Shown here: positions 2,539 through 38,700 of the stretch, one piece after another
Numbering within the stretch: position 1 is the first letter of the stretch
Layout: the number at the start of each line of letters is the position of its first letter
Source of the DNA: Lichina pygmaea
Lineage: Eukaryota; Ascomycota; Lichinomycetes; Lichinales; Lichinaceae
Direction: 5' to 3'
DNA length: 64,000 nt
NCBI GenBank assembly: GCA_963422465.1
Contig: OY730175.1
Coordinates: 806,001-870,000, forward strand
Position numbers and translations under genes: made by a program
Notes under the pieces: generated by a model
Database searches by the model: none
What the model was told of the DNA's origin: nothing
Seen by the model: only the letters and a program-made list of their open reading frames with translations

Positions 2539-2596
2539 ATGTCGCATCTCAAACCCAGCCTAGCACCTCCACCCGTCCTACCCATCCCAAAGACGA

Positions 2597-3580
2597 TTGT
2601 GGTCCTGCACCCGGACTTATCCTGACGGTAGAAACAACCTAACAGGACTGCCAGCCAACGATGACGGTGGTATCCACTACGACACGGTACTGGTGGCCTG
2701 CCAGATCCTGGCCAACAACCGGTGGGACGGTTTCTTTGCTCGCAAGACAGCAGCTCCAGCCGTGGCACCGGCATTCGAGCCTGTCGAGAGACCTGCCGAT
2801 AACATCCTCCGCGGGCAGGAACACTACTTTTGCCTGCCGGATCGTCCGGCCCCGAACCCAGATTCGCCATACCCCATCGTCGTCGCCTTCACCGACTGGC
2901 GATTGCCGCACTCAGGGATGCCGTCCATCTGGAGCGACGTGGATCTAAACCCAGGGCACTTGGGTGCCGGTGTGGAGGAGGGATTCATGCCAACGGAGGG
3001 GTGCTGCATCACGGCGTGCGGCGACGCAACCGAGAAGTCACACGTCGTGCACAAGAACCTAGGCGACTGGTTCAACGTCAACCACATGCGGCCCTACGCA
3101 CCTCGCAGCAGTATGACGACGCAGCAAATCAATAGCCCAGCCAACATCGTATACATGCGGAAAGACCTACACGCACTTTTTGACGGGGGTGTGTTCACCA
3201 TTGTGCCTAAGGAGGGCCACCTGGCCCTGCACATCTTTCTATCGACACCCTCGCAACAGCTTGAGGACACCTACCACAACCGTGTGCTATGGCCGCTCAC
3301 GCTGATCTCGCGTGAGTATCTGTCGGTGCGTTTTGCGTCGACAATACTTTCCTATGGGCTCACGGGGGAATTCCTCGAGGAAGGGCTGCCTGACCATAGA
3401 GTCATACTGCGTTGGGATCCGGAGGGAATGACGCATGCTGTCGAGGACATGGACCAGGACAAATGCAAGACAGTCCTTTACGCAAAGCGAGCCAAGAGTT
3501 CCAGCAGCAGCCCGTCCAAGAAACGGCGAGCGGAATGTGGCAGCACACAGGGTCGAGGCACAAGCGCCAATGCTGATGCT

Positions 3581-3633
<53 letters not shown>

Positions 3634-3928
3634 TGATGGGCCACTGACAGACGGGGAATGCTCGGCGGACAACTCCTTCGCAACCAAGGAGGAGGACAGC
3701 GACACCGAAGATTCACCACCACGGGGGCGGTCGCGAAAGCGGGCTGTCGACCGTGTCAACAGTGCGGAGGGGTACATGAACGTGCGGAGAGTATGTATGG
3801 TGCCTGTTCGAAAGAAGAAAGAAGGAGAAGAGGAGTACTTGTCCAGTAATTCCAAGAGTGAGACTCCAGACTCCGGTGAGACGGGTCTTTCGAAATCAAG
3901 AATGGATGAAGATTGTGGCAATGAATAA
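2597..3928 (+). CDS. HNH_2-type nuclease-domain protein, 5' end frameshifted
   Basis: The open frame encodes 443 residues. The central part has the look of the fungal HNH endonuclease domain family (PF13391): a Cys pair near GCCITACGD, SHVVHKNLGDWF, and then the block VYMRKDLHALFDGGVFTIVPK. These proteins are common and often multicopy in filamentous fungi, and their biological role is unknown. The C-terminal third is low complexity, with Asp-Thr dipeptides from a 6-bp repeat, then acidic and Lys/Arg-rich stretches. The annotated ATG gives a poor N-terminus; a better one starts at ATG 2539 in another frame (MSHLKPSLAPPPVLPIPKTI...HP) and would run straight into TYPDGRNNLTG if one G near 2614 were absent. 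The copy is therefore either a pseudogene, a sequencing error, or translated from the internal ATG. Confidence 0.75.
3581..3634 (+). repeat. GACACC hexanucleotide repeat inside the HNH gene
   Basis: About nine copies of GACACC in frame, coding Asp-Thr dipeptides in the C-terminal low-complexity region. Its length is a multiple of three, so copy-number changes keep the frame. Confidence 0.85.
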
Positions 3929-10574: not shown

Positions 10575-12859
10575 GCCCGTTTCTTCCGGAGGCGATGACA
10601 GTTGTGGGATGCTGCCGATTCGGCCGATCCGGCTCCCCGCCGCGGAGCCCGCTCAGGGTCAAATGTCAGGAGCGTTTGAGGAAGGGAAGATGTGTGGGAT
10701 AAGTTGGAGGTGTCGTCGGCCCCTGCGGACCGCTCGCCGTGGTTTCGTTCTTGCACGTGTAATTTCACCGGCGGTAGATAGTATACTCTCTTACTCTCTC
10801 AGGTCTCGTGTACTATTAGCTGCGGGCTTGAAGGTACAGTACGGTGAAATAATCCAGCCTGTTTAAGCCACGGCAAGGCTGGCCGCCGACGGCGCCGTCA
10901 TCGCTTTCAGACGCCATCACCTCCGGCGAGGATGCGGCGCGTCGGGACCGTCATCGATGTCGCGATTCTGTTCGCTCGAGAGAGCACCACGAACATATCT
11001 ACCTACAGGACGGAGTACGTACGTACGAGCACCGGAAGATCAGTGCGATGGGGATGCGGAATACATGGCTCGATCTTGAGATGGCCGGCGGCTGTGGCGG
11101 CGTCAGCAAAACGCTTCCGTCTGGCGAGTCTGAGGCGCGCGCTTCGAGGAATATCGACCACATCGAGCACATCGACCGCGTCAACTTACCGCACAGGGCC
11201 GACGGCCGTTCGACAGCACTTCGTACTGCACCTCGTACATCACTGTGCTGTGCCCTTGCTGCAGTAGGTTTTCTGCGTGCGGCTGTAACCTTGCTCCAAC
11301 GCGCCGATGGAAGCGTCTCTCTCTCTTTCTCTTCATCTTTGACATTTCTTCCGTAAAAAGTGGTTCCCTCCAGCTGATCGAAAAACACGGCAGGGTCGTC
11401 CACTGCTCTTCGATTTCTCTGTCTCTTGGTTATTCTCATCTGGAGGGGGTTGCTCGATTTAGGTATCGTTGTTATATCCGTAGACCCTGGCGTGCCTGGG
11501 ACCAATCCGATGCTGACGGTACCGTAGCAGAGTGATATAGTTATCCACTTGGGAGTATTCTTGTATTCTAAAGAAAGAAACATCGCCAAAAGAGACCAAG
11601 ACCGAAGTGGACCTTCGCTCGCAACAGGGCTGGGATGATTGCGACGAATACGGACTACTGGCCGTACGAGTCGGGACTAGCGAATCTATACAAAGATGCA
11701 TTGTTTACGCACGTTGCGACACTAGGACTGATCCTGCCTAGTTGGTTGAGACTACCCATGCACATTCCTTCGCCCCCCCCCCCCCCCCCCCCGGAGGTCA
11801 AGGCCAGAGATGCACGGAGTACGTTACGTACGGCCGTACGTATTACGTACGTACATACGTACGGCATCGTGGACATGCAACTGCTCGCCAAGGCTCTACC
11901 GTGCGGTAATGGCGTGGCTCGCAAAGGGACTCGATCGTGGGTCAGGACCGACGACGGTGTTGGTTCCACATTGTCAGAAGAAGAGTACCCGCACCGTTCC
12001 ACGCCAGAGCGCGTTTCTGGCCGTCGTCGCCGAGGGGCGTCGTTGGGTGAGGTTGCCCCACCCCTGCATTAGCCGCCCAGATGCTGTCATCCAGACTTAG
12101 TTCCACCCACCGACTTCGCGGCGAAGGCTCGATGCCGGTGCCGACTGGCGCATCCTTGTTCCACCTCCGACGGGCACTTGCCGCCATTGTGTCGCCGTAG
12201 CGCCCTGCGCGCCGCGTTCGTCGCTTACCCAAGGGTCTCGTTGCCGCGGGCAACCCATCGGAGGACTACGGACTACCTTGACGACGAGCGCGAGGGAGAG
12301 GGGCACGCGAAGATGTCGTTCGTCCCCCCCTCCATGACGTACCTGGCGGGAGATTCCCGCGGTGACGCGCCGTATGAAAGGCGTCCATGCCCTGGTTCGT
12401 CTCTCTCGAGGTGCAGCACGACCGATCAGCGACACACATCCTTCCTTTTCTCTTCTCGTTCTTCTTTCCTTGCCTTCTTTTCCTTTCTCTTCGTCGGTAC
12501 GGGCACGTTTTTCGCCTCGCCTATACCCTGCAGCAGAAGACCGTTTCGAGTTCTTGTTCGTCTCCTTCACCATCGTGTTACTATTACGTAGCGAAGCAGG
12601 CAGCGCAACACCAGCCCAGCCGGCCCGGTGACCGGTTTCACCTCCTCTCCTCTCTTGTCTGAGCCCCGACCGGTCTGCATGTCTCCCCTACGGCGCTGGT
12701 AGCCTTACGGCGGCGCAGACATCTTTATGATGATGGTCACGGTACCGTCGTCCGTCTCGCCACCACGCCATCGCTCTCGGTGGTCGTAAGCGTGCGCGTG
12801 CGCGTGGACTCGCGCATTGGCATTGGCGTTGCGCGGGCTGGGCCGACGCCATCTCGACC
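10575..12859. other. intergenic, 2.3 kb
   Basis: No supported gene. Contains TACGTA-rich DNA (11818-11866), a poly-C run of about 17 at 11776-11792, and a CT-rich tract at 12420-12560 that looks like the promoter or leader region of the CFEM gene. Confidence 0.45.
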
Positions 12860-14225
12860 ATGCCGTCAGCGCCTTGGCTTGCCGGTCTTGGTGCGCTGCT
12901 CGGTCCGATCGCCTGCGCTCTACCTCAAGCGTCCGCGTCGAGCCTTCCCAGACGACTCGACGACGTGCTGCCCACCTGCGCCAAGGCTTGCGTGGCGGGC
13001 TTCGTCGGCCCCGGCTGGCCGTCGTCCGTCTGCGGATCCAACGACGATCTCGGCTGCCTGTGCCGGACGAGAAGCACGTCGGGATTCACCCTCAGCGAGG
13101 TCGGGCTGCAGTGCGTTGCTAGCTCGTGCTCGTCCCCGATGACGCAGCAGGACGGAGAGCGGATGCGTCGAGTCTGCCTGGGCCAAGATGGTGCGTTGCC
13201 AAACACGCATAGCGTGCTCACGGCTACGGCACCGCCATCGACAGCCACCGAGGCACGAACATCGATCGAGGCGAACGTCCCGGTCGTCGCAGACACGGCC
13301 GAGACGTCGTCCACGTCCAGCAGAAGCGCGACGAGCCGGTCCGCAAGCGTCACCTCAGCCTCGGCGACGGCGCCGGCGCCGGCGCAAGAGTCGAGCGGAC
13401 CACTAACGCGCGAACAGATCGCCGGCGTCTGCGTCGGCGTCGCCGCGGCCGTGGCCGTCGTTGCCGCCTCGATGGCCGCCGCCTGTCTGTACTTTGGATG
13501 GTGCGGGTGTCGTCGAAAGCGGCGACGAGACACGTCCGGCTTCAGCGCGCTGCCGTCGCCGCGGCCTGGCGACGACGAGGAGCGAGGCTGGTACGGCCGA
13601 CGCTCGGACCAAGCAGGGGTCGACGAGGGGCGCAGGTCCGTCCGGGACAACCGGCGTGCTCCGTCCAGGTCGACGGCGCGGTGGCCGTCCGTTCACCCGG
13701 CAGCGATCGGCGTGGCCCTCTCGCCGGAATCGAAGCAATCGCAGTTCACAGCCAAGGCGACCCCGACGGTGCGGTCTCGATCGGTCTCGACCTTGTTGCC
13801 GGACAAACCGGTCTACCGGCCCGTCTTCCCCGCCCCGCCGAGGACGAGACCGTTCAGCGAGACGACGGTGATCGAGGAGGAGGAGGAGGAGGCCGACGCC
13901 GCCGCTGCCGTCGCCGCTGCCGTCGCCGCTGCCGTCGCCGCTGCCGCTGCACGCGTCGACGACGGGTACGAGGGCAGCACGTCCAGCTGTCACACGTCGC
14001 TGGGCTGGCCGTCGGGCTATTACTCGCCGGACTTTGAGAGCGACAACCCGCATCTGCGGGGGTATCAGTACGCGCGACACTTGTCGAATCCGCCGCTCGT
14101 GCCTCCGATGCCCTCGGCGGCCGAGTCCGTCATGGCAGAGATCAAGCAGGGCAAGCTGGGAGCCGTCGCGACGGCATCGCTCACGCGGAGTCCTTCTTCG
14201 TTGGCCGATAGAGACCATCGCAAGA

Positions 14226-14271
<46 letters not shown>

Positions 14272-16081
14272 AGTCCAATCCAATCGCGGTTCCCGCGGGT
14301 CGAGGCTGCGGCTTTCGACGGCCTCCGCCACCTCGTTCGAGACTCAGGACGATCTGGAGCCAGGGACCAACCGGGGACTGACGCCGGTGCGTGAGCTGTA
14401 CGAGGCCGACGGGGACGAGGATCACACCGTCTCTCCCATCTCGCCCGAGCGGCTCAAGTATCCGGCCGTGCCACGCTCGCTGTCGAGTCCTTGCAGCGGG
14501 TCCCCTGCGAAGCGTCGTTCTCACCTCTCTCCGCTGGATGCGCTCTCTCTTTCTCCGTCTCCGTCGCCGTCGCGCCCTCGACCACAGCCTCCACAGCCTC
14601 CACAGCCTCTAAGAGTAGGAGCAGCAGCAGGACCGTCTCGTGCCGGTCTACAGCCGCCACCGCTCCTCCGCAACGACACGTACAACCGCAGCGAGGACCT
14701 CGTGATCGCGACGACCCAGGCCTTGACGCAGGCAACGGGGTCTCGGCAGTTCAGCAAGCAGAATCTGCTCGCCGAAGCGCCTACGCGCGAAGAGGATTTT
14801 AGACGACTGCATCTCGCCGACGAGGTCGAGCGCGCTCGTCAGGGCCTGGATCTCATGCGCCAACGAGCCGCGGCGGCGGCGGCCAACATCCGCGGGACCG
14901 GGGCCCACGCGCCCGACAAGCCTGCCGTCGAGGTTCTCTGTCCCAAGCACTGCCAGCAGCACCGGCAGCAGCAGCAGCAGCAGCATCATCGTCATCATCA
15001 TCATCATCGTCATCCACAGCAGCGCTCTCCCTCTTATCACGTCTTTCCGGTGCCATTGCATCAGCAGCACAAGACCGCTAGTGGTGCTGGTGCTAGTGCC
15101 AGCGTTCCAAAGCACTCGACGCCACCCCCGCCATCGGCCGAAACGAGCAACAACGACGCGGCACACACCCAGCCCGGTCCATCGTCCTCGGACCAACCAC
15201 GCAACCTGCAGAACGCACCGGCGTGGCTAACGCGACTGAAGCCGACAAAGAAGGACGGCGATCTATGTCTCGTGCTCGACCCGTCTTCGTCGTCTTCGTC
15301 GTCTCCTCCTCGGTCTTGGTCTAGTACTACTCTGTCGAGTACTGCTCTGTCGAGTACTGCTCTGTCGAGTACTGCTCTGTCGAGTACTGCTTTGTCGAGT
15401 ACACCTGCGCCGAGCACTGCTCCTCCTCCCTCGCACTCACACCAACACGCGCGCGCGTACAGACACATGCCGTCACAAGCACAACTGCAACCGTCTTCCT
15501 TGCGGCCGTACATGCACATGCCACCACAAACACATCTGCAGCTGTCCACCTCGCGCACGACACCTCCGTCCTCCTCTCCTGCATTCATCCATCGCACAGA
15601 GCCTGCAAGAGGATCCCCTGCAGCCACAGGATCCCCAGCAACCCCAAGAGCTCCAAGAGCACCAGCTACGTCAGCACGCGCACAAGCCGCAGGGACAGGA
15701 GCACGAACACGAGCAACAGGAGCAGCGGGTCGTCAGACGCTGCCACAAAGAACAAGTTCTTTGGCGGCGGTGCTGACAGCAGCAAAGGCGACGCGGAGAA
15801 AACCTGTTCCTGCTGCTGCGGCCGCTGCTACTTCTGCGGCTGCGGATGCTGCGGATGCTGCGGATGCTGCGGATGCTGCGGATACGGCGACAATGACTCT
15901 GAGAGGAGGGGCAGCAGGAGGGGGAGATGGTGGTGGTGGTGGTGGCCACACACAGGAGCAGCTGCTGCATCAGCAGCGATACAAGCGGCAGCATGAGCAG
16001 CAACAACAGCGGCAACTGCATCAGCATCAGCATCAGCATCAGCACGATCATCAGCACCACCAGCACCATCAGCGATATTAG
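12860..16081 (+). CDS. large CFEM-domain membrane protein with low-complexity cytoplasmic tail
   Basis: A single 1073-residue open frame. An N-terminal signal peptide (about residues 1-22) precedes a CFEM domain near residues 38-107, with eight Cys in the expected order: CAKAC, VCG, CLC, a spaced Cys, SSC and RRVC. CFEM domains are fungal extracellular modules; some bind haem, others act as surface receptors. A Ser/Thr-rich stalk is followed by one transmembrane helix (about 186-212, VCVGVAAAVAVVAASMAAAC) and a basic stop-transfer CRRKRRR, giving an outside-N topology. The cytoplasmic tail of more than 800 residues is almost all low complexity: poly-Gly, poly-Ala, Gln/His runs, STALS pentapeptides and Pro/Ser stretches. 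A cryptic donor near 13190 could mark an unspliced intron after the CFEM domain. The extreme C-terminus is repetitive and its reality is less certain. Confidence 0.8.
14227..14272 (+). repeat. GGC trinucleotide repeat (poly-Gly) in the CFEM gene
   Basis: About 15 uninterrupted GGC triplets coding glycine in the cytoplasmic tail. Confidence 0.9.
15323..15405 (+). repeat. 15-bp tandem repeat (STALS) in the CFEM gene
   Basis: About five near-identical copies of a 15-bp unit, core CTGTCGAGTACTGCT, each coding the pentapeptide LSSTA. In-frame expansion unit. Confidence 0.85.
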
Positions 16082-19246: not shown

Positions 19247-21231
19247 GATGGTGTGTGACGAAGAATCTCGAGGTTGGGGGTGATCCAAAGACCGGTCTTA
19301 TGATCCTGGCCGTAGCGTACAATGCAGGGTCCTTCTGTCGGTCAGAATGAGAGTCGATACGATCGCGTCGAGAGACGGTGATGGCGATGATGTGAGTGTG
19401 TCGAGGTCGACGGCCAGAGGGGTTGATGTAACCCGACCAAAACGGGGCCGGCGGATCTGCAGGAGTCAATGCACGTACCTGGCGAGGGCGAAGAGCAAAC
19501 GTCGAACCAGCCCGACCAGAGTCGGTGGAGACGATGCAGGGCGCTTTCGCTGTTTCAAGCACGACCGACGACGACCGGTTGCTGGATGCAGGCTTCGTAT
19601 TCCTCGAAACAGGCCGAACACAAGCAGGATGTACGCATGTAGGTGAAATGCCAACGAGCGGCGCGAGATATCAGTCGAACCTCGGCGGGTGCAGATGTTG
19701 ATTCCGGCGTTTCAAAGGTGTTGAACGGCGTTTCAATGGTGTTGAACGGCGTTTCAATGGTGTTGAACGGCGTTTCAATGGTGTTGAGCGGCGTTTCAAT
19801 GGTGTTGAACGGCGTTTCAATGGTGTTGAACGAGCGTGGAGAGTTGAGGAGGTGTTCTCGGTCAGGCCCAAGCGTCAACTTGGCCGCCCTCAGATCTTCG
19901 GCGAGACGATTTTTGCAATCCCCGGCCGGCCGTCCAGGTGCGACACAACCGAGGCGATGACGTGTGACTCGGCGGTCTTCAGCCAGCCCCTTTTTTCGAA
20001 AAGAAAACAATGACGGGCCAGCTATGCTTGTCGAATTGCTTCAGCACTTTCGGTGGACTGGGCCAAGACAGACGGCTCGCTCTTGAAAGGCTTGGGCCCA
20101 AATATAGAAGGGCGGCCGACCAACAAATGCCGAATGCTTACGGAAGTACGGAGTACGGAGTACTCCGCACGCAAATACTCGTACGTATGTACTCTGTACG
20201 GAAGTACATGATAAACATTAGCGCGGCATAAGCCGGAAATATCGCTCCTCTTCCGACTGGAAGCGACTCGGTCGTGTGGGTCTAGGAATGGCTTAGTCAC
20301 AGCCTAATTCTTATGTACGTACGTATGCTCGCAGACCGCGTACGTTACGTCCGGAGTACTCGTACACAGGTCTATCCTCCAAAGGAGGGTGAGGACGTAT
20401 ACGAGGGTACATACAGTACATATCGTCATTCCACCTGGTGATCACAGCTCTCCCCACACTCCCCGACCTCAAAGTCAAGATCGACGCACTGACAGAAAAA
20501 AGACCCGCTGGGAAGTAATTACCGTATTTTCTTATTTTCTTATTTGCCTCCCGATTCAAACCGTCTGCGGGGTAATCACGCTCCCCCACCACCACCACAA
20601 CCGTAATACGTAGACAGTGGCGCTGATCAGGCTGTTCTCGCGGGAGAGCTCGTCGCCGCGCGGACATGATCAACGAACCGACGACGGATCTCGACAGGGT
20701 CGGCCAGCATATCTCGCCAATGGACGAAGTAACGGGCGACAGATTTATTGACGTGGGCCTTCGGTCGAAGACAAGGTTCGAGTTTCTGGCCGGTGATGGC
20801 CCAGCCCCTACATCAGACTCTTCTCTCTCGGCGAAAGCACGCCAGGTCGCCACCCCTGCGAGCGCCTCAGGCATCACCAAACCTCTATCTCGGTCTTCCT
20901 AAGGGTGGTGTGGTGCGGTGGGAAGCTGGTGAGAGTCTACCACTACGTGGCACCCCTAACCTGGAACTAGCAGTGTCAGGCCTGGAGAACCTAACTAAAC
21001 CGGTTGTCGGTTCAAATATGACCCACCCCACAAAACCCAAGATTCACAAGAATTGTCTAAGATGTACCCACAAGATGTATAAAATCCTTCAAGACATAGC
21101 TCACTCTATCTTATCACTGTTTCCTGTTTCCTCTACAGGGTTTGGAGTTTTCCCGCAGTACATACCGGTACACTACAAACTAAGGGTGTCGCAGTACATA
21201 CAGTATGTTATACCTTACTCGTGTTGGAATT
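19247..21231. other. intergenic, 2 kb, with 21-bp minisatellite
   Basis: No firm gene. It contains the minisatellite at 19706 and GTACGGAGTACTCC-type palindromes at about 20140-20215 and 20312-20365. The minus frame 19555-20010 is open across the minisatellite and discussed as a finding. Confidence 0.4.
19706..19831. repeat. 21-bp minisatellite, six copies
   Basis: Six contiguous units of GGCGTTTCAATGGTGTTGAA plus C at 19706, 19727, 19748, 19769, 19790 and 19811. The first differs by one base (AAAGG) and the fourth has GAGC for GAAC. Being a multiple of three it is open in several frames; on the minus strand it reads as a heptapeptide FNTIETP. Confidence 0.95.
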
Positions 21232-22170
21232 GGACGTTGTGGGTGTGGAGCCCTAAGCACCGTCATGTTTGCTCTTGGCCCATGTATTTTGGGCAGTCGC
21301 CGAAACCCTAGCTGGCTCTCTTCAACGACAACAAACATCATCGTCTTCTTCTGCTTTGCCCCCAGAATCGATCAGGTTATGAACCCAGCCCGCATCGCTA
21401 GACTTGCCTATCGCTAGGAAGCTAGCTCGGTTGATTGTTCCGCTGGCTAGTTGTTGAGAAACTAGCAACCCATCTCTCACCCACGTCTTCTTGAGAGTTC
21501 GCACGGTACGGGACTGTCAAAGACCCGGTACAGCAACACAGCCAACAAGATGACTTCCGAAGAGCGACTATATCGGATTGTCAAGCTGAGAGGCTCCGAG
21601 AACCATCACTCGTGGGCGTTGGACGTGAAGATGATCCTTATCCGAGGAGGACTGTGGAGGGTCACTGATGGTCGTCTCACTAGTCAAGAGACAGCCCTCA
21701 ATCGACTCAGTCAATCGTGAGCCTACAGCTCAGAGCCACATCCTCTGACCAGGAACATGGTCTCACAAGTCTCGGAGAGAGCAATATCTTGCATGCCGAG
21801 ATTGTCAGGTGGAGAGAGCAAGTTTTTGCGTGCCCCATACATTACTAACTACCAACCTACAGCTGGTATGACTTTCGGACAGGGCGGGCTGCCGTGGAGA
21901 TGCCTGTCGAGTCACGAAGCTACGGAAGCTACAGGACCTGCGAATGTCGAGCTACGGAGCAGGATCGTCGATCGACTTGACTAAAACATGGAGCTGCGAG
22001 CAAGGGCGGGTGTTGGAACTGGACGTTGTGGGTGTGGAGCTCTAAGCACTGTCATGTTTGCTCTTGCCCCATGTATTTTGGGCAAGTTCTCTTCAAAAAC
22101 AACAAACATCATCGTCTCCTTCTGCTGTGCCTCCAGAATCGATCAGCTTGAACATCACCCTTCTAGTACA
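21232..22170 (+). mobile_element. copia-like LTR retrotransposon relic, internally deleted
   Basis: Two direct copies of an LTR-like sequence beginning TGTTGGAA/C-TGGACGTTGTG start at 21232 and 22011. They share the blocks GGGTGTGGAG, CATGTTTGCTCTTG, CATGTATTTTGGGCA and AGAATCGATCAG. Between them, ATG 21550 opens a 56-codon frame (MTSEERLYRIVKLRGSENHH, then SWALDVKMILIRGGLW), the opening of a Ty1/copia gag (UBN2-type domain), which ends at a TGA (21718-21720). No protease, integrase or reverse transcriptase remains, so only about 0.3 kb of internal sequence survives. LTR ends are not sharply defined and I could not see a convincing target duplication. Confidence 0.7.
21550..21720 (+). pseudogene. 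truncated copia gag fragment
   Basis: 56 codons from the gag start of the relic above; typical gag proteins are several hundred residues, so this is a remnant. Confidence 0.65.
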
Positions 22171-32626: not shown

Positions 32627-34029
32627 GGGGCATGTGTCAAGGGCTGGGTTTGACAATTGGGGCAAGGGCTGGGGCGGGGGTCAGAGCGGGGGTTGGTTAA
32701 GGGGTGCGGCGGGAGTGTGAGCGGACCTGGGTAAAGGGCTGAGACAGGGTCGAGGTCGAGGATGATTAAGCGCACGACGGAGGGAGTCTGCCAAGGAACC
32801 ATGAGGGCCGGCTACGGAGTAGTGCTGGTCGCGATGGTGTTATTTGACATCAGCTGTTCGTCGGTGGATGAGAATGAGGATGATGACGATGATGGAAATG
32901 AGGTTGAGGATGAGGGCGAGGGTGAGGGTGAGAATGATAACAAGGCTGAGGCTGAGGCTGAGGCTGAGGATGAGGATGAGGATGAGGATGAGGATGAGGA
33001 TGAGGATGAGGACGAGTAGAAGGATGAGAATAGAAACGAGCAGGAGCATAGGCAGGAGCATGAGCAGAGTATCGCGCTATATCGTACTGAATCATACTGA
33101 AAGTCCAGCTTCTATCAGTCTCTTGTTGTTTCTTTCATCTCTCTTCTCTCTTCTCTTTCTCGTCACGCTCCCTACTTGATTCTTCACACCCTCTTACGAC
33201 CTCCTTTGTTATATACTTTTCATCTCGTCCTCCTTGCCTCATCTTCATCTTCCTCTTCCTCTTCCTCTTTCACTCGGTCACAAAGATGATCTATTGTGAT
33301 AGCCATTTCGACTTGCAGAAAGGCTTAGTCTTATTCCCCCCACAGACCATTGGTTGCACTGCAGTTGATAAGACTCTTTGATCATGTACGAAAAAAAAAA
33401 CCCCCCCCCCCCATGTATAGATTGGCGTTCCCCCCCCCCCCGGTCCCCTTCCCCGTGGGTCCCTTCTCCCCTAGAGGAAGTACGAGTGATCAACAACCAC
33501 GTCGACACTCAGATTCTCAACCTATGGCGAGATGAGGAGACTTTTCTCCCAAAGGAAAAGCCCTTTTTAAGGAGATGCAGTCTGGACCGAGCACTCGACG
33601 TCTGTAGCGATTGTGTTTAGAGTAGAAACTCGATGTGATTGGAAAAAAGAAGTAGAAGAGGTTGTCTGCCCGGTCCAGCCGGCAAAATACCAGGGTTCAT
33701 GCTGTGGTAGTCGGGTATGATGGAGGGTTGTCTTCTCTGAGAAAGCATGCCCTGTTACGGTGTTCGGCTCAGAAAAGAAGAGGAGAGAAGGAAGAGGCTT
33801 GTACCGTATGTTATATTGGTGCCGAAGCTAGAGAAAAAAGACCGAGCATCGCACGGGCCGAAAGCACGAGAGCTAGAACAACGTGCTTCACGTGCTACGT
33901 GCGCAGAGGATGGAGCAGTGACGAAGGGGTAGGACAGGCAAGTAGAATTCAAATACCTCTAGTGCTTGTTGAAGGTACCATGATCGTCGTTGGAATCATC
34001 GTTGCTATCGAAGAAAGCTCACTGAGCTG
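32627..34029. other. intergenic with GATGAG hexamer tract
   Basis: Purine-rich GAGGAT/GAGGCT repeats (32872-33016), poly-C runs near 33400-33440 and GA-rich DNA. The frames across the repeat (for example 32762-33019, acidic tail) are by-products. Confidence 0.45.
32872..33016 (+). repeat. hexanucleotide GATGAG/GCTGAG tract
   Basis: Imperfect purine-rich hexamer array that grows most regular at 32941-33010. Confidence 0.85.
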
Positions 34030-34218
34030 GTGGACACGATCGTGAAAGGTGATCGATTCTGGAGGCACAGCAGAAGAAGATGATGATGTTTGTTGTCGTC
34101 GTTCTCGTTGTTGTTGAAGAGAACTAGCTACGGTTTCGGTGACTGCTCTAGATGCATGGGGGGAGAGCAAACATGACGGTGCTTAGGGCTCCACACCCAC
34201 AACGTCCAACGTCTAACA
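34030..34218 (-). mobile_element. solo copia-like LTR fragment
   Basis: Read on the minus strand it starts TGTTAGACGTTGGACGTTGTG and shares GGTGTGGAGCCCTAAGCACC, GTCATGTTTGCTC and CCAGAATCGATCA with the LTR copies at 21232 and 22011. It is a third, diverged, inverted copy lying downstream of the kinase-like gene. Confidence 0.75.
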
Positions 34219-34267
34219 AAAGGAAGGGTATCGCGGCTGTGTTCAAGCTACGGAGGGAGGCGACGTG

Positions 34268-35779
34268 TTAGACCCCGTGGGCATGGTTAGCAGCAGGGGC
34301 AGCCCCGTTGGCGTTGCTGGATACATTCTTCTGGCTACTACCAGCAGTTGCTCCACTCGAGCCGGCCATCGCGGAAACACGGGCGCGGGGAGAAATGAGT
34401 GGTTGACCAGCCGGCCGGGGATACAGCCCCGGCTGCATTTGCCAGAAAGCTTGCACGTCCGAGATCCGTGGTCTTCTCATGGGACTCGGACACAGACAGA
34501 GATGGACCATCTCCGACCAATGGCCCGGGACGCCGCGTTGCTCAAGCGCGGCCAGGATGCGATCATCCTCGACCGGGCGTCTCCCCTCCTTCACCCCGAC
34601 CAAGACGAACGACATCGCCTTGGCCAGACTGTACACCTCGGCCGCCTCGACCGCGCGCGGGTAGCTCTGCATCCATCTCGAGAAGACGTTCCACCCTCGG
34701 CCCCCAAATCGACCGGTTCCATTGGGCGACGGCGGAGCCGGCCGGTAAGAGGGACAGTCGGGATGGGAGTCGGGCACAATGTCTGTGGAACCATCCACCT
34801 CGGGCGCCAGCGTACAAGACGATGCGCGACGTTGGCCCCAGTTCATCAGCTTGGCATTGCCCTCGTCGTCGAGGAGGAAGTTTCCCGGCCTGATGTCCAT
34901 GTGGTACAGCCTCGCGACCAGATGGATGTGGGCAACGGCGGCCGACATCTGCGCGCACCAGACGGCTAGAACGCCGAAACTCGTTGTGCTGTCGGCCTGG
35001 TTGTCGAGCGTGCAGCCGCTCAAGCAAGGTACCAGCATCCCACAGATACGTGTCGGCGTGGTACCAGGCTCGGTCAGAAACCCCCTGTCCGGAGTGAGGA
35101 TGTTGAAATGCCACGGAATGCGCTTCGCGACCCGAACCTCGTCTTCCCAGGCCCGATGCAACTGGCAAAACCTCTCGTCGCCGTGCAGGAAGTAGTCGGA
35201 GAAGTCGAACATCTTGCACAAGAACCTCTCCGAGGACCTGAGCCCGAGAGTCACGACGGCTTTCGTTCCACTCCCGTCAAGGTAACGTAGGAAAAAAAGC
35301 CGAGAGCGACATATAGCAGGGCCAAGCTGCCGAAACGAAAAGCTAGGGAAGGGAAGGTGGTTCAGGTAGTCGTAGTAGACTTGATCGCGATGAATCTGAT
35401 AGCTCATCACGCCCTCGATCTGCTCAACTTCAATCATGGCTTGGGGCATGTAAGCGTCCAGATGGTGCTCGCATGCATTCCATATAGCCTTGACAAGGTA
35501 GAGGAAGGAGTACGTCATCGTCTCCCGGTACTGCGCCATCTTGGCGAAGCCAGTTGGCCGTGGTTCGTAGTATCTGGTTATCACTTGGCTGCAAAGCGTA
35601 TCGGCGTATTTTCGACTGTGTTTTAAGCGGTAGAAGAACAAGGCTCCGCTCCGACAACCTCTCAGGTACACGGACATTTTGTCCGGATGGCTGTAGACCT
35701 TGAGACTGATGTTGTTGTTGAACAGGAAAAGAGGTGGTTGAAGGCCGGTCTGTTGGGCATGGCGTTGATTGTCGGCCAT
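34268..35779 (-). CDS. protein kinase-like (possible pseudokinase) protein
   Basis: A single-exon 503-residue frame. The C-terminal half has a recognisable kinase-fold layout: a Lys in FLCKMFDF (candidate beta3), a helix with EDEVRVAKRI, a hinge-like GMLVPCLSGCTL, then YHMDIRPGNFLLDDEGNAKL in place of the HRDxKxxN loop and MNWG where DFG should be. The metal-binding Asp of DFG is therefore Asn, and the family Lys of the catalytic loop is Arg (DIRPGN), so catalysis may be lost or altered. Later EVYSLAKAMSFVL fits the alpha-F region. The N-terminal 200 residues match nothing I know. A TATATAAT box lies near 35943-35950 on this strand, about 165 bp upstream. Function unknown; likely a lineage-specific gene in a transposon-scarred region. 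Confidence 0.75.
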   Translation of the reverse strand: MADNQRHAQQTGLQPPLFLFNNNISLKVYSHPDKMSVYLRGCRSGALFFYRLKHSRKYADTLCSQVITRYYEPRPTGFAKMAQYRETMTYSFLYLVKAIWNACEHHLDAYMPQAMIEVEQIEGVMSYQIHRDQVYYDYLNHLPFPSFSFRQLGPAICRSRLFFLRYLDGSGTKAVVTLGLRSSERFLCKMFDFSDYFLHGDERFCQLHRAWEDEVRVAKRIPWHFNILTPDRGFLTEPGTTPTRICGMLVPCLSGCTLDNQADSTTSFGVLAVWCAQMSAAVAHIHLVARLYHMDIRPGNFLLDDEGNAKLMNWGQRRASSCTLAPEVDGSTDIVPDSHPDCPSYRPAPPSPNGTGRFGGRGWNVFSRWMQSYPRAVEAAEVYSLAKAMSFVLVGVKEGRRPVEDDRILAALEQRGVPGHWSEMVHLCLCPSPMRRPRISDVQAFWQMQPGLYPRPAGQPLISPRARVSAMAGSSGATAGSSQKNVSSNANGAAPAANHAHGV

Positions 35780-38700
35780 GGTTGCAAGAAGGGTGAAGTG
35801 ATGTTGAATTTCTGTAAGTTCCTCGAGGGCTTGTTGCGAGACGATGTCCGGAACGGGTTGTAGAACTTGCTGTTCAGAGACTTTGAAAGAAGAAGGATAT
35901 TGGGGAATGATGCTGACACTCGATGGGATGCGAGAGCGTCTTCATTATATAGGTAGTTCCCATGCAACCAGCACCCCCTCGTCGAAAAGGAGTGTCAAAA
36001 AGGGGCAGGAGCTGCCCCCTGGTCGTGGGTGGGGAAAAAACTTGGAAAATAGTAGTCAGCTTATATAGCTTAAACTTCAGGGGGGGGGTCTCAGTACTTA
36101 ACAGTCACAGAGTAAATACACCTTAGATGTTTGGCGTATAGTCAAATCCTGGATCAGGAAGTGAACATCCCAGAGGGGACTGGACTTGCCTCTGGTCGTG
36201 GGCTGAGAAAGAAGATTCCGAGAATAGTGATTAGCCTTCACGAGGTTACAATTTGATTCCGGGGTTGAAACGTAGTCGAGAAATACGATCAAAGAAGAAT
36301 TATTATATAACATACACTCGGTCTGCTGTAGCTTGACTTGGCCTTGGAGCGTAGTTCTTTTCTTCAGAATAGACTTTGAGTACTCATTCTATTACTGAGA
36401 AGTTTTCTGCCAGCGACTCAAGACTGAATCATAGTCGAGTGCTGAGACTATGTGTATTTCACATAGTCAGCTCTACCTCCAGCCAGCTACTCAAGAGCAA
36501 GTAGTATTTGGGTATCGAGAGAGAGATCAGGTGCCTGAACACGCCCTTTGACACTTGAACATCCGAGGACAACGGAGACTGTGTGAATGTCTTCAGATCG
36601 TGACTGTTCATATAGCTCAGAGAGCTGCTGGACAGAGCATGCTCAAATAAAGAACACATATAAAGGTGTCTAAACCAAAGACTTGTGCGGAGATGCACGA
36701 GGCCAGTCTAAAAACAGCCTGGAGGTGCTCAGATGATGAGGAGAGACGATATTTGCTTTGGCCTCCCGAGCACGAAAACTTGTACATCTTGTCCATTGTG
36801 ACCCCTCCCCCGCCGGTGCCTTCTTCCGCATGGTCCTCACTGCCATCCGCCTATGACTGACACGATGCGCGTGACTTATCAAAGTTCGCGGCTTATATCT
36901 TCCGCTCTTGACATGGCCAAATACCGGGCGGTCCCCATTGAGTTGGATGGCCTTGAGCGGGATGAACTGACAGTCGTCTGCCGACTTTCTCCTCATCTAG
37001 GTCTCGACCAGGGATGTTCCAAAGTGGTATGTCCATGATGCTGTCCGTACTGACTGGCGATTATATAAATCATTAGATCCTGCGTGAAGTGGTTCTTCCT
37101 CCGCCGGATGGCTACTCCGTGGTTCTCTGCTGGGGATCGCTCGCAGCTGAACTGTCTCCGCGGTCCCCAAAGCCCTCATTTGACGTCCGCACGAATGGTA
37201 CCGTAAGCCAAGGGATGCTTGTACGTAAAACTCTGCTCCACATGTTGCCGTCCGTTGCTTGTGTATATCGGCACGGTGGCTGTTGGCGACTTGCTACTGT
37301 ACCGTGAACGCTCGTTGGATGCGACTGCAATCTGACAGCAGCTGCGGAGATCAGCAAAGTACTTCCACCGTATGCAAGTCATATACTATCCAGACTCGCG
37401 TTAGAGTACGTAGCTATCAGGATGATCGCCTACGTACGTACCCCGGGCTACTGGTACTCCAATCCTCGGAGCAATAACATAGCGCGGCGCGGTGAGGCCG
37501 GTAGGTGATTAGCGTTGTCGCAACTGTCAGTTGCATCCAGAGTGGCAAGCCAGATCCTACGGTATGACGCAGTCATATATAAGATGTGTTTGCTGTATGG
37601 TTTGTTTCAGAAAGCTTGCTGGCATCACTTTTCAGCAACTGTTGGCTTGAGAACATCTGGCCTACGATTTGGTCTCCGCAAGTGGGAGTTGCTGAATAAG
37701 GGCTTGGACCTACGAGGTACAGTACGAGTAAGCACCCGTGGCACCCTACATACGGAGTACGCTTGTATGTACTCCGTACATACGGAGTATGTACATACGC
37801 ACTTCCGTACCAGTATGTCGTCCCGTACTTTGCAGGTACTTTATACTTTTCATAACTACGTATCGTACTCGTAGAGACTTTCCAGCAAAAAATTCAGTTG
37901 TTGGCAGATGCTAGCAATGATTCCGTCATCTCTGCTCAACGACCTGATCTGGAGGCACGGAAGTACTCGTGGGGTACTGTATAATCAGCGGTGATAGTGT
38001 TAGCGCGTTACTACATGGTAGTGCTGAGTCAGCTTGTGCTTCATAGCTATTGAGTCTCTGTAGTTGGCTACGTGCAGGCATCTGATCTCGGGTTTTTTGA
38101 AGATGCGGCTCTGCGACATACTCGCGCTCGTACTGCGACGATGTTATTTCCGTCACACCCCTTGTATACGTTGCAGCCGGCGCTCCGCCTGGGCCGTAAC
38201 AGTACTAACGCTTGCCAGACGGGTGCAATATTCCACGATCTCGCTTTCCTTCTTCCCGGCTTGCTCGCATCGGGATTCTTTGTGCTTTTGCCGTCCAGGC
38301 CTCCCACGCCTCCCTCGTTCCTTGTCATGCGCAGTCACTCGTTCCTGGACCCGAGCTCCTCGTCGTCTTACTCGTTGTCGTCACCTTCAGCTTGCTTGTT
38401 TCCATTCTTCTCCCCCTTCTCCCTCGTCCTCTGCCGTTTCAGTCGTTGACACTCCCACCGTCGCCATCGTCGTCGTCGTTGTCGTCGCAAGCAGTATCGC
38501 CACCGCTACCGCCGATCCGAATCTCTGTCGAGCAGAAGCTCCTGCTTCGACTAGGCTTCCCTTGGTCGACGCTAAACTCTAATCTCCGCCACGCGAAGAG
38601 ACTTGGGCACGTTGGGTTGCTGCGTAATCAGCGGTATCGTTTGCCTTCGAGTTTTCGCCTTTGGACGGCGGAAGCTGATCTGTCTTCTCTATCATCGTTG

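Follow-up and report, generated by a model that had tools for sequence, protein, structure and literature searches.

A single-copy kinase-fold protein of Lichina pygmaea with altered catalytic motifs, a probable pseudokinase

Pseudokinases are already well known as a kind of protein, and are defined by loss of the VAIK Lys, the HRD Asp or the DFG Asp (PMC4718504). In PKA numbering, N171 and D184 have a metal-binding role (PMC4718504). Loss of a motif does not always end activity, as described for CASK and ILK1 (PMC4718504, PMC9403797). In Tribbles, both the beta3 strand (LRCK/LVCK) and the DFG motif (SLE) are altered (PMC7586955). Kinases that remain unclassified average 41 per Fusarium genome, and are relatively few in most other filamentous fungi (PMC6001611); the Fusarium number implies that at least some filamentous fungi commonly carry orphan kinase-fold genes.

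Here we describe a 503-aa kinase-like protein encoded in a 64,000-nucleotide stretch of the L. pygmaea genome (hereafter, the window; C7:806001-870000 in our searches of the 32.5-Mb genome, which comprises 8 contigs). The features of the locus are listed in Table 1.

Table 1. Features of the kinase-like gene and the adjacent solo LTR (positions in the window).
Feature	Position	Strand	Basis
503-aa kinase-like protein, one open frame including stop codon	34268..35779	-	ORF list, codon analysis
N-terminal region, residues 1-150, no detectable relatives	35330..35779	-	Pfam and own-genome searches
Kinase-like domain, residues about 165-446	34442..35287	-	Pfam, tblastn, kinase profile, AlphaFold model, structure matches
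Gly-rich loop G169-S-G171-T-K-A174-V-V176, kept; third Gly is Ala	35252..35275	-	residue table
beta3 L187-C-K189, Lys kept; C-spine Ala to Leu	35213..35221	-	residue table
alphaC Glu214, kept	35138..35140	-	residue table
Catalytic loop H293-M-D295-I-R297-P-G-N300, with Asp and Asn unchanged; Met for Arg, Arg for Lys	34880..34903	-	alignments, residue table
N313-W314-G315 at DFG position	34835..34843	-	alignments, profile, residue table
A348-P-P350 at APE position (Glu to Pro)	34730..34738	-	residue table; low-confidence part of model
Glu381 at alphaF Asp position (AEVYSL)	34637..34639	-	residue table
TATA-like TATATAA, ~170 nt upstream of ATG	35947..35953 (approximate)	-	sequence reading
Complete solo LTR, 169 bp, TG...CA, ends 49 bp past stop codon	34050..34218	.	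genome comparison, sequence reading
Target-site duplication AAAGG (5 bp)	34045..34049	.	sequence
Target-site duplication AAAGG (5 bp)	34219..34223	.	sequence

The reading frame has no interruption. From stop to stop it spans 34268 to 35941 on the minus strand, and 557 open codons are expected by chance at about 6e-9 per position at the given composition. The start ATG lies in a context (GCAACCATGGCC) that is good by fungal standards. The codon choice was best in this frame among all six, and exceeded a composition-matched synonymous null by 5.6 SD. It was not fully like that of the kinases of the same genome, being poorer in the initial 170 and final 80 codons. Inspection of the frame revealed neither consensus fungal intron signals nor cryptic introns, and the gene thus appears to be intronless, as the earlier note had proposed. 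The same note had placed the gene in AT-richer DNA. This applied to the flanks only (~48% GC), while the gene itself was near the level of the window (~58.6% GC as the mean over the three codon positions). Upstream of the gene, two imperfect copies of a sequence (70%; 36001-36040 and 36174-36213) were found 173 bp apart, and a search with the 1.2 kb upstream region revealed no second copy of it in the genome.

The resemblance of the protein to kinases is above chance, and all lines of evidence agree on it. Pkinase (PF00069) was its sole credible Pfam match (E 1.1e-6; 28.7 bits, under the curated cut-off of 31.7). By tblastn, residues 231-449 matched a Nostoc Ser/Thr kinase (E 1e-5), and S6-kinase and many other PDB kinases aligned with residues 273-319. 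Furthermore, a profile built from 36 other kinases, which were taken from viral contigs by a pattern scan, matched residues 252-319 and, weakly, 378-440 (E ~1e-9 in a one-sequence search). A full-length single-sequence AlphaFold model (pLDDT 34) was discarded. Modeling of residues 150-462 by AF2 with the 36 distant kinases as the alignment yielded a bilobal kinase structure (pLDDT 73, pTM 0.74) with a C-lobe core above 90, in which the activation segment (about residues 319-361) was not resolved. The top structure matches of this model were kinase domains, with Z ~19 over ~220-230 residues and mostly 13-17% identity. Since the alignment guides the fold, the model is a compatibility test and is supportive rather than independent. 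Together, the sequence matches and the model bear out the kinase fold proposed in the earlier note.

In the order and spacing of the Gly-rich loop, beta3 Lys, alphaC Glu, HxD motif, N171-type Asn, xxG, alphaF and subdomain XI Arg, the protein is like the PF00069 kinase domain. Conserved residues (PKA equivalents in parentheses) are G169 (G50), G171 (G52), V176 (V57), K189 (K72), E214 (E91), H293 (H164), D295 (D166), N300 (N171) and G315 (G186), and R436 in the last subdomain (XI) is also kept. It differs from PF00069 in having NWG for DFG, HMD for HRD, Arg for the loop Lys, APP for APE and Glu for the alphaF Asp, and in the ~40-residue activation segment that was not resolved in the model, besides its score below the Pfam cut-off. 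In terms of PKA residues, A174 stands for G55, L187 for A70, M294 for R165, R297 for K168, N313 for D184 and W314 for F185; P350 replaces the APE Glu and E381 the alphaF Asp. D295 and N313 lie 18 residues apart with no gap between them, just as D166 and D184 do in PKA. Because the spacing between HMD and NWG is exactly that between HRD and DFG, Asn313 corresponds to the DFG Asp and Arg297 to the loop Lys. In the alignments, the placement of Asn313 is secure; that of A348-P-P350 at the APE position is less so.

All 36 comparison kinases had Asp at position 184, the APE Glu and the alphaF Asp, and 29 of them had Ala at position 70. Lys168 and Arg165 were likewise present in 36/36, but the scan pattern had selected for both. 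In kinases from the same genome, the DFG Asp and the loop Lys were found in 13/13. These results are in line with the earlier note, which had recognized the catalytic-loop Asp kept in HMDIRPGNF (D295) and the change of the DFG Asp to Asn and of the loop Lys to Arg. Four departures were absent from that note: Leu for the beta3 Ala, Met for the HRD Arg, Pro for the APE Glu and Glu for the alphaF Asp. With them, the pseudokinase-type motif loss is better supported than the note had recognized.

With Asn313 at the DFG Asp position, the protein fits the usual sequence definition of a pseudokinase, although the VAIK Lys and HRD Asp are kept. The designation "probable pseudokinase" is well supported by the residue comparison, in which the DFG Asp, loop Lys and beta3 Ala, as well as the HRD Arg, the APE Glu and the Asp of alphaF, are all altered. 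Normal catalysis is unlikely, given that Lys168, the APE Glu and the alphaF Asp have been lost and that a Leu would face the adenine pocket. This single-copy kinase-fold protein, altered at several positions required for catalysis, probably has no catalytic activity or a very weak one. Against this reading, the remaining pseudokinases in the PMC7586955 table retain the alphaF Asp. On balance, we consider it likely that the product of this filamentous-fungal gene is a divergent protein of the eukaryotic-protein-kinase fold, present in single copy, in which efficient phosphotransfer has most likely been lost. Asn stands in for the DFG Asp, the normal ligand of the ATP metal ions, and Arg for the catalytic-loop Lys; the APE Glu and alphaF Asp, which hold the activation segment, are missing, and Leu replaces the beta3 Ala, which packs on adenine. 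Canonical binding of Mg2+-ATP may then be weak or absent, and the kinase fold and the novel 150-residue N terminus could serve as a binding platform or allosteric partner, by analogy to Tribbles- or STRAD-type pseudokinases.

With the Tribbles/STRAD type, the protein shares the kinase fold and the altered DFG motif and beta3 strand, and its FLCK resembles the LVCK/LRCK of TRIB beta3. However, no family-level sequence relation to them was seen, and the protein keeps the HxD Asp, loop Asn and alphaC Glu. Instead of SLE for DFG and a degenerate Gly-rich loop, as in Tribbles, it has NWG and GSGTKAVV.

The conserved HxD Asp, loop Asn, beta3 Lys, alphaC Glu and Gly-rich loop mean that residual or atypical activity is possible. 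The protein could be an active atypical kinase, in which catalysis proceeds via the HxD Asp, loop Asn and beta3 Lys, with Asn313 as a weaker metal ligand or with metal-independent activity. Every other direct catalytic residue is indeed present, and CASK and ILK1 provide precedents. However, a constrained active kinase would be expected to retain the beta3 Ala, the loop Lys, the APE Glu and the alphaF Asp, which are lost together here, and we regard this explanation as doubtful.

The own-genome search detected one copy of the gene; other matches were ordinary kinases (one of them Aurora-like) or due to chance, and those at C2:506353 and C1:2975038 were read and rejected as chance. When the N- and C-terminal parts were used separately, no paralogue was found in the genome either, and searches of viral and bacterial genome collections revealed no relative of the protein. 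FunK1 kinases, like this protein, are fungal specific and divergent. Their Pfam model, which we take to be PF17667, was not among the matches up to E 10, where a very divergent member may still escape. Divergent, sparsely conserved kinase-fold genes outside the core kinome are also described as "Unclassified" in filamentous ascomycetes (PMC6001611); that set consists of Fusarium genes counted by Kinannote, and the likeness is by description only.

Many ascomycetes encode kinase-like orphan proteins that carry a WNVF element as well as the motifs DIKPGN...DWEQ...LAPEADGT. In our protein, the stretches LAPEVDGS and WNVFSRW presumably resemble these motifs, which we treat as a lead only. If the lead is right, this ascomycete family keeps the Asp (DWE) and NWG would be a change within it. 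Scans for LAPEADGTWD-type patterns found nothing, as expected, because the scanned collections contain no fungi, and the literature search did not find such a motif in a protein context.

Next to the gene, the earlier note had seen an LTR fragment and had taken it as part of the support for a lineage-specific pseudokinase. The insertion is real; it is not a fragment but a solo LTR that is complete and has a target-site duplication, and is no evidence of pseudokinase status. The LTR has ~40 relatives in the genome, mostly with 75-88% identity, and perfect 5-bp duplications were present in 12 of 20 copies examined. The copies are short (mostly 145-195 bp) and dispersed over the contigs, most of those examined have intact or near-intact 5-bp target duplications, and two lie in the window (34050-34218 and about 21230-21374). 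Imperfect GAGGATGAG-type hexamer repeats are located at 32866-33064, ~1.2 kb downstream of the kinase-like gene. The surroundings are ordinary gene territory, and other frames in the window encode a tubulin C-terminal domain, a RhoGAP, an HhH-GPD glycosylase and an AAA helicase. Furthermore, the window contains a frame with an HNH_2 endonuclease domain (2564-3928, plus strand) and an open frame of 1115 codons with an N-terminal CFEM domain (12734-16081, plus strand).

The nearby LTR, the failure to find a paralogue in the genome, the suboptimal codon usage at both ends and the Pkinase match under the Pfam cut-off would also suit a decaying or recently orphaned gene that once encoded a kinase and now drifts without function in a still unbroken frame. 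This is improbable in view of 503 codons without a lesion, the good start context with a TATA upstream, the codon bias well above the null and the intact motif spacing. It also seems quite improbable that the protein founds a fungal pseudokinase family not yet described, having a private N-terminal domain and a reshaped activation segment and acting as a nucleotide-free scaffold or a metal-independent kinase. Finally, a single base separates codon 313 (AAC) from GAC, but an assembly or strain-level error for the canonical Asp is highly improbable, since the remaining departures do not stem from the same base and neither strand shows the CpA context of RIP. RIP was rejected as the origin of this codon because the sequence context does not fit.

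The general picture of kinases is unchanged by this protein. Should it be a conserved pseudokinase whose N-terminal domain is its own, noncatalytic kinase signaling in fungi could be tested on a small case with a single gene.
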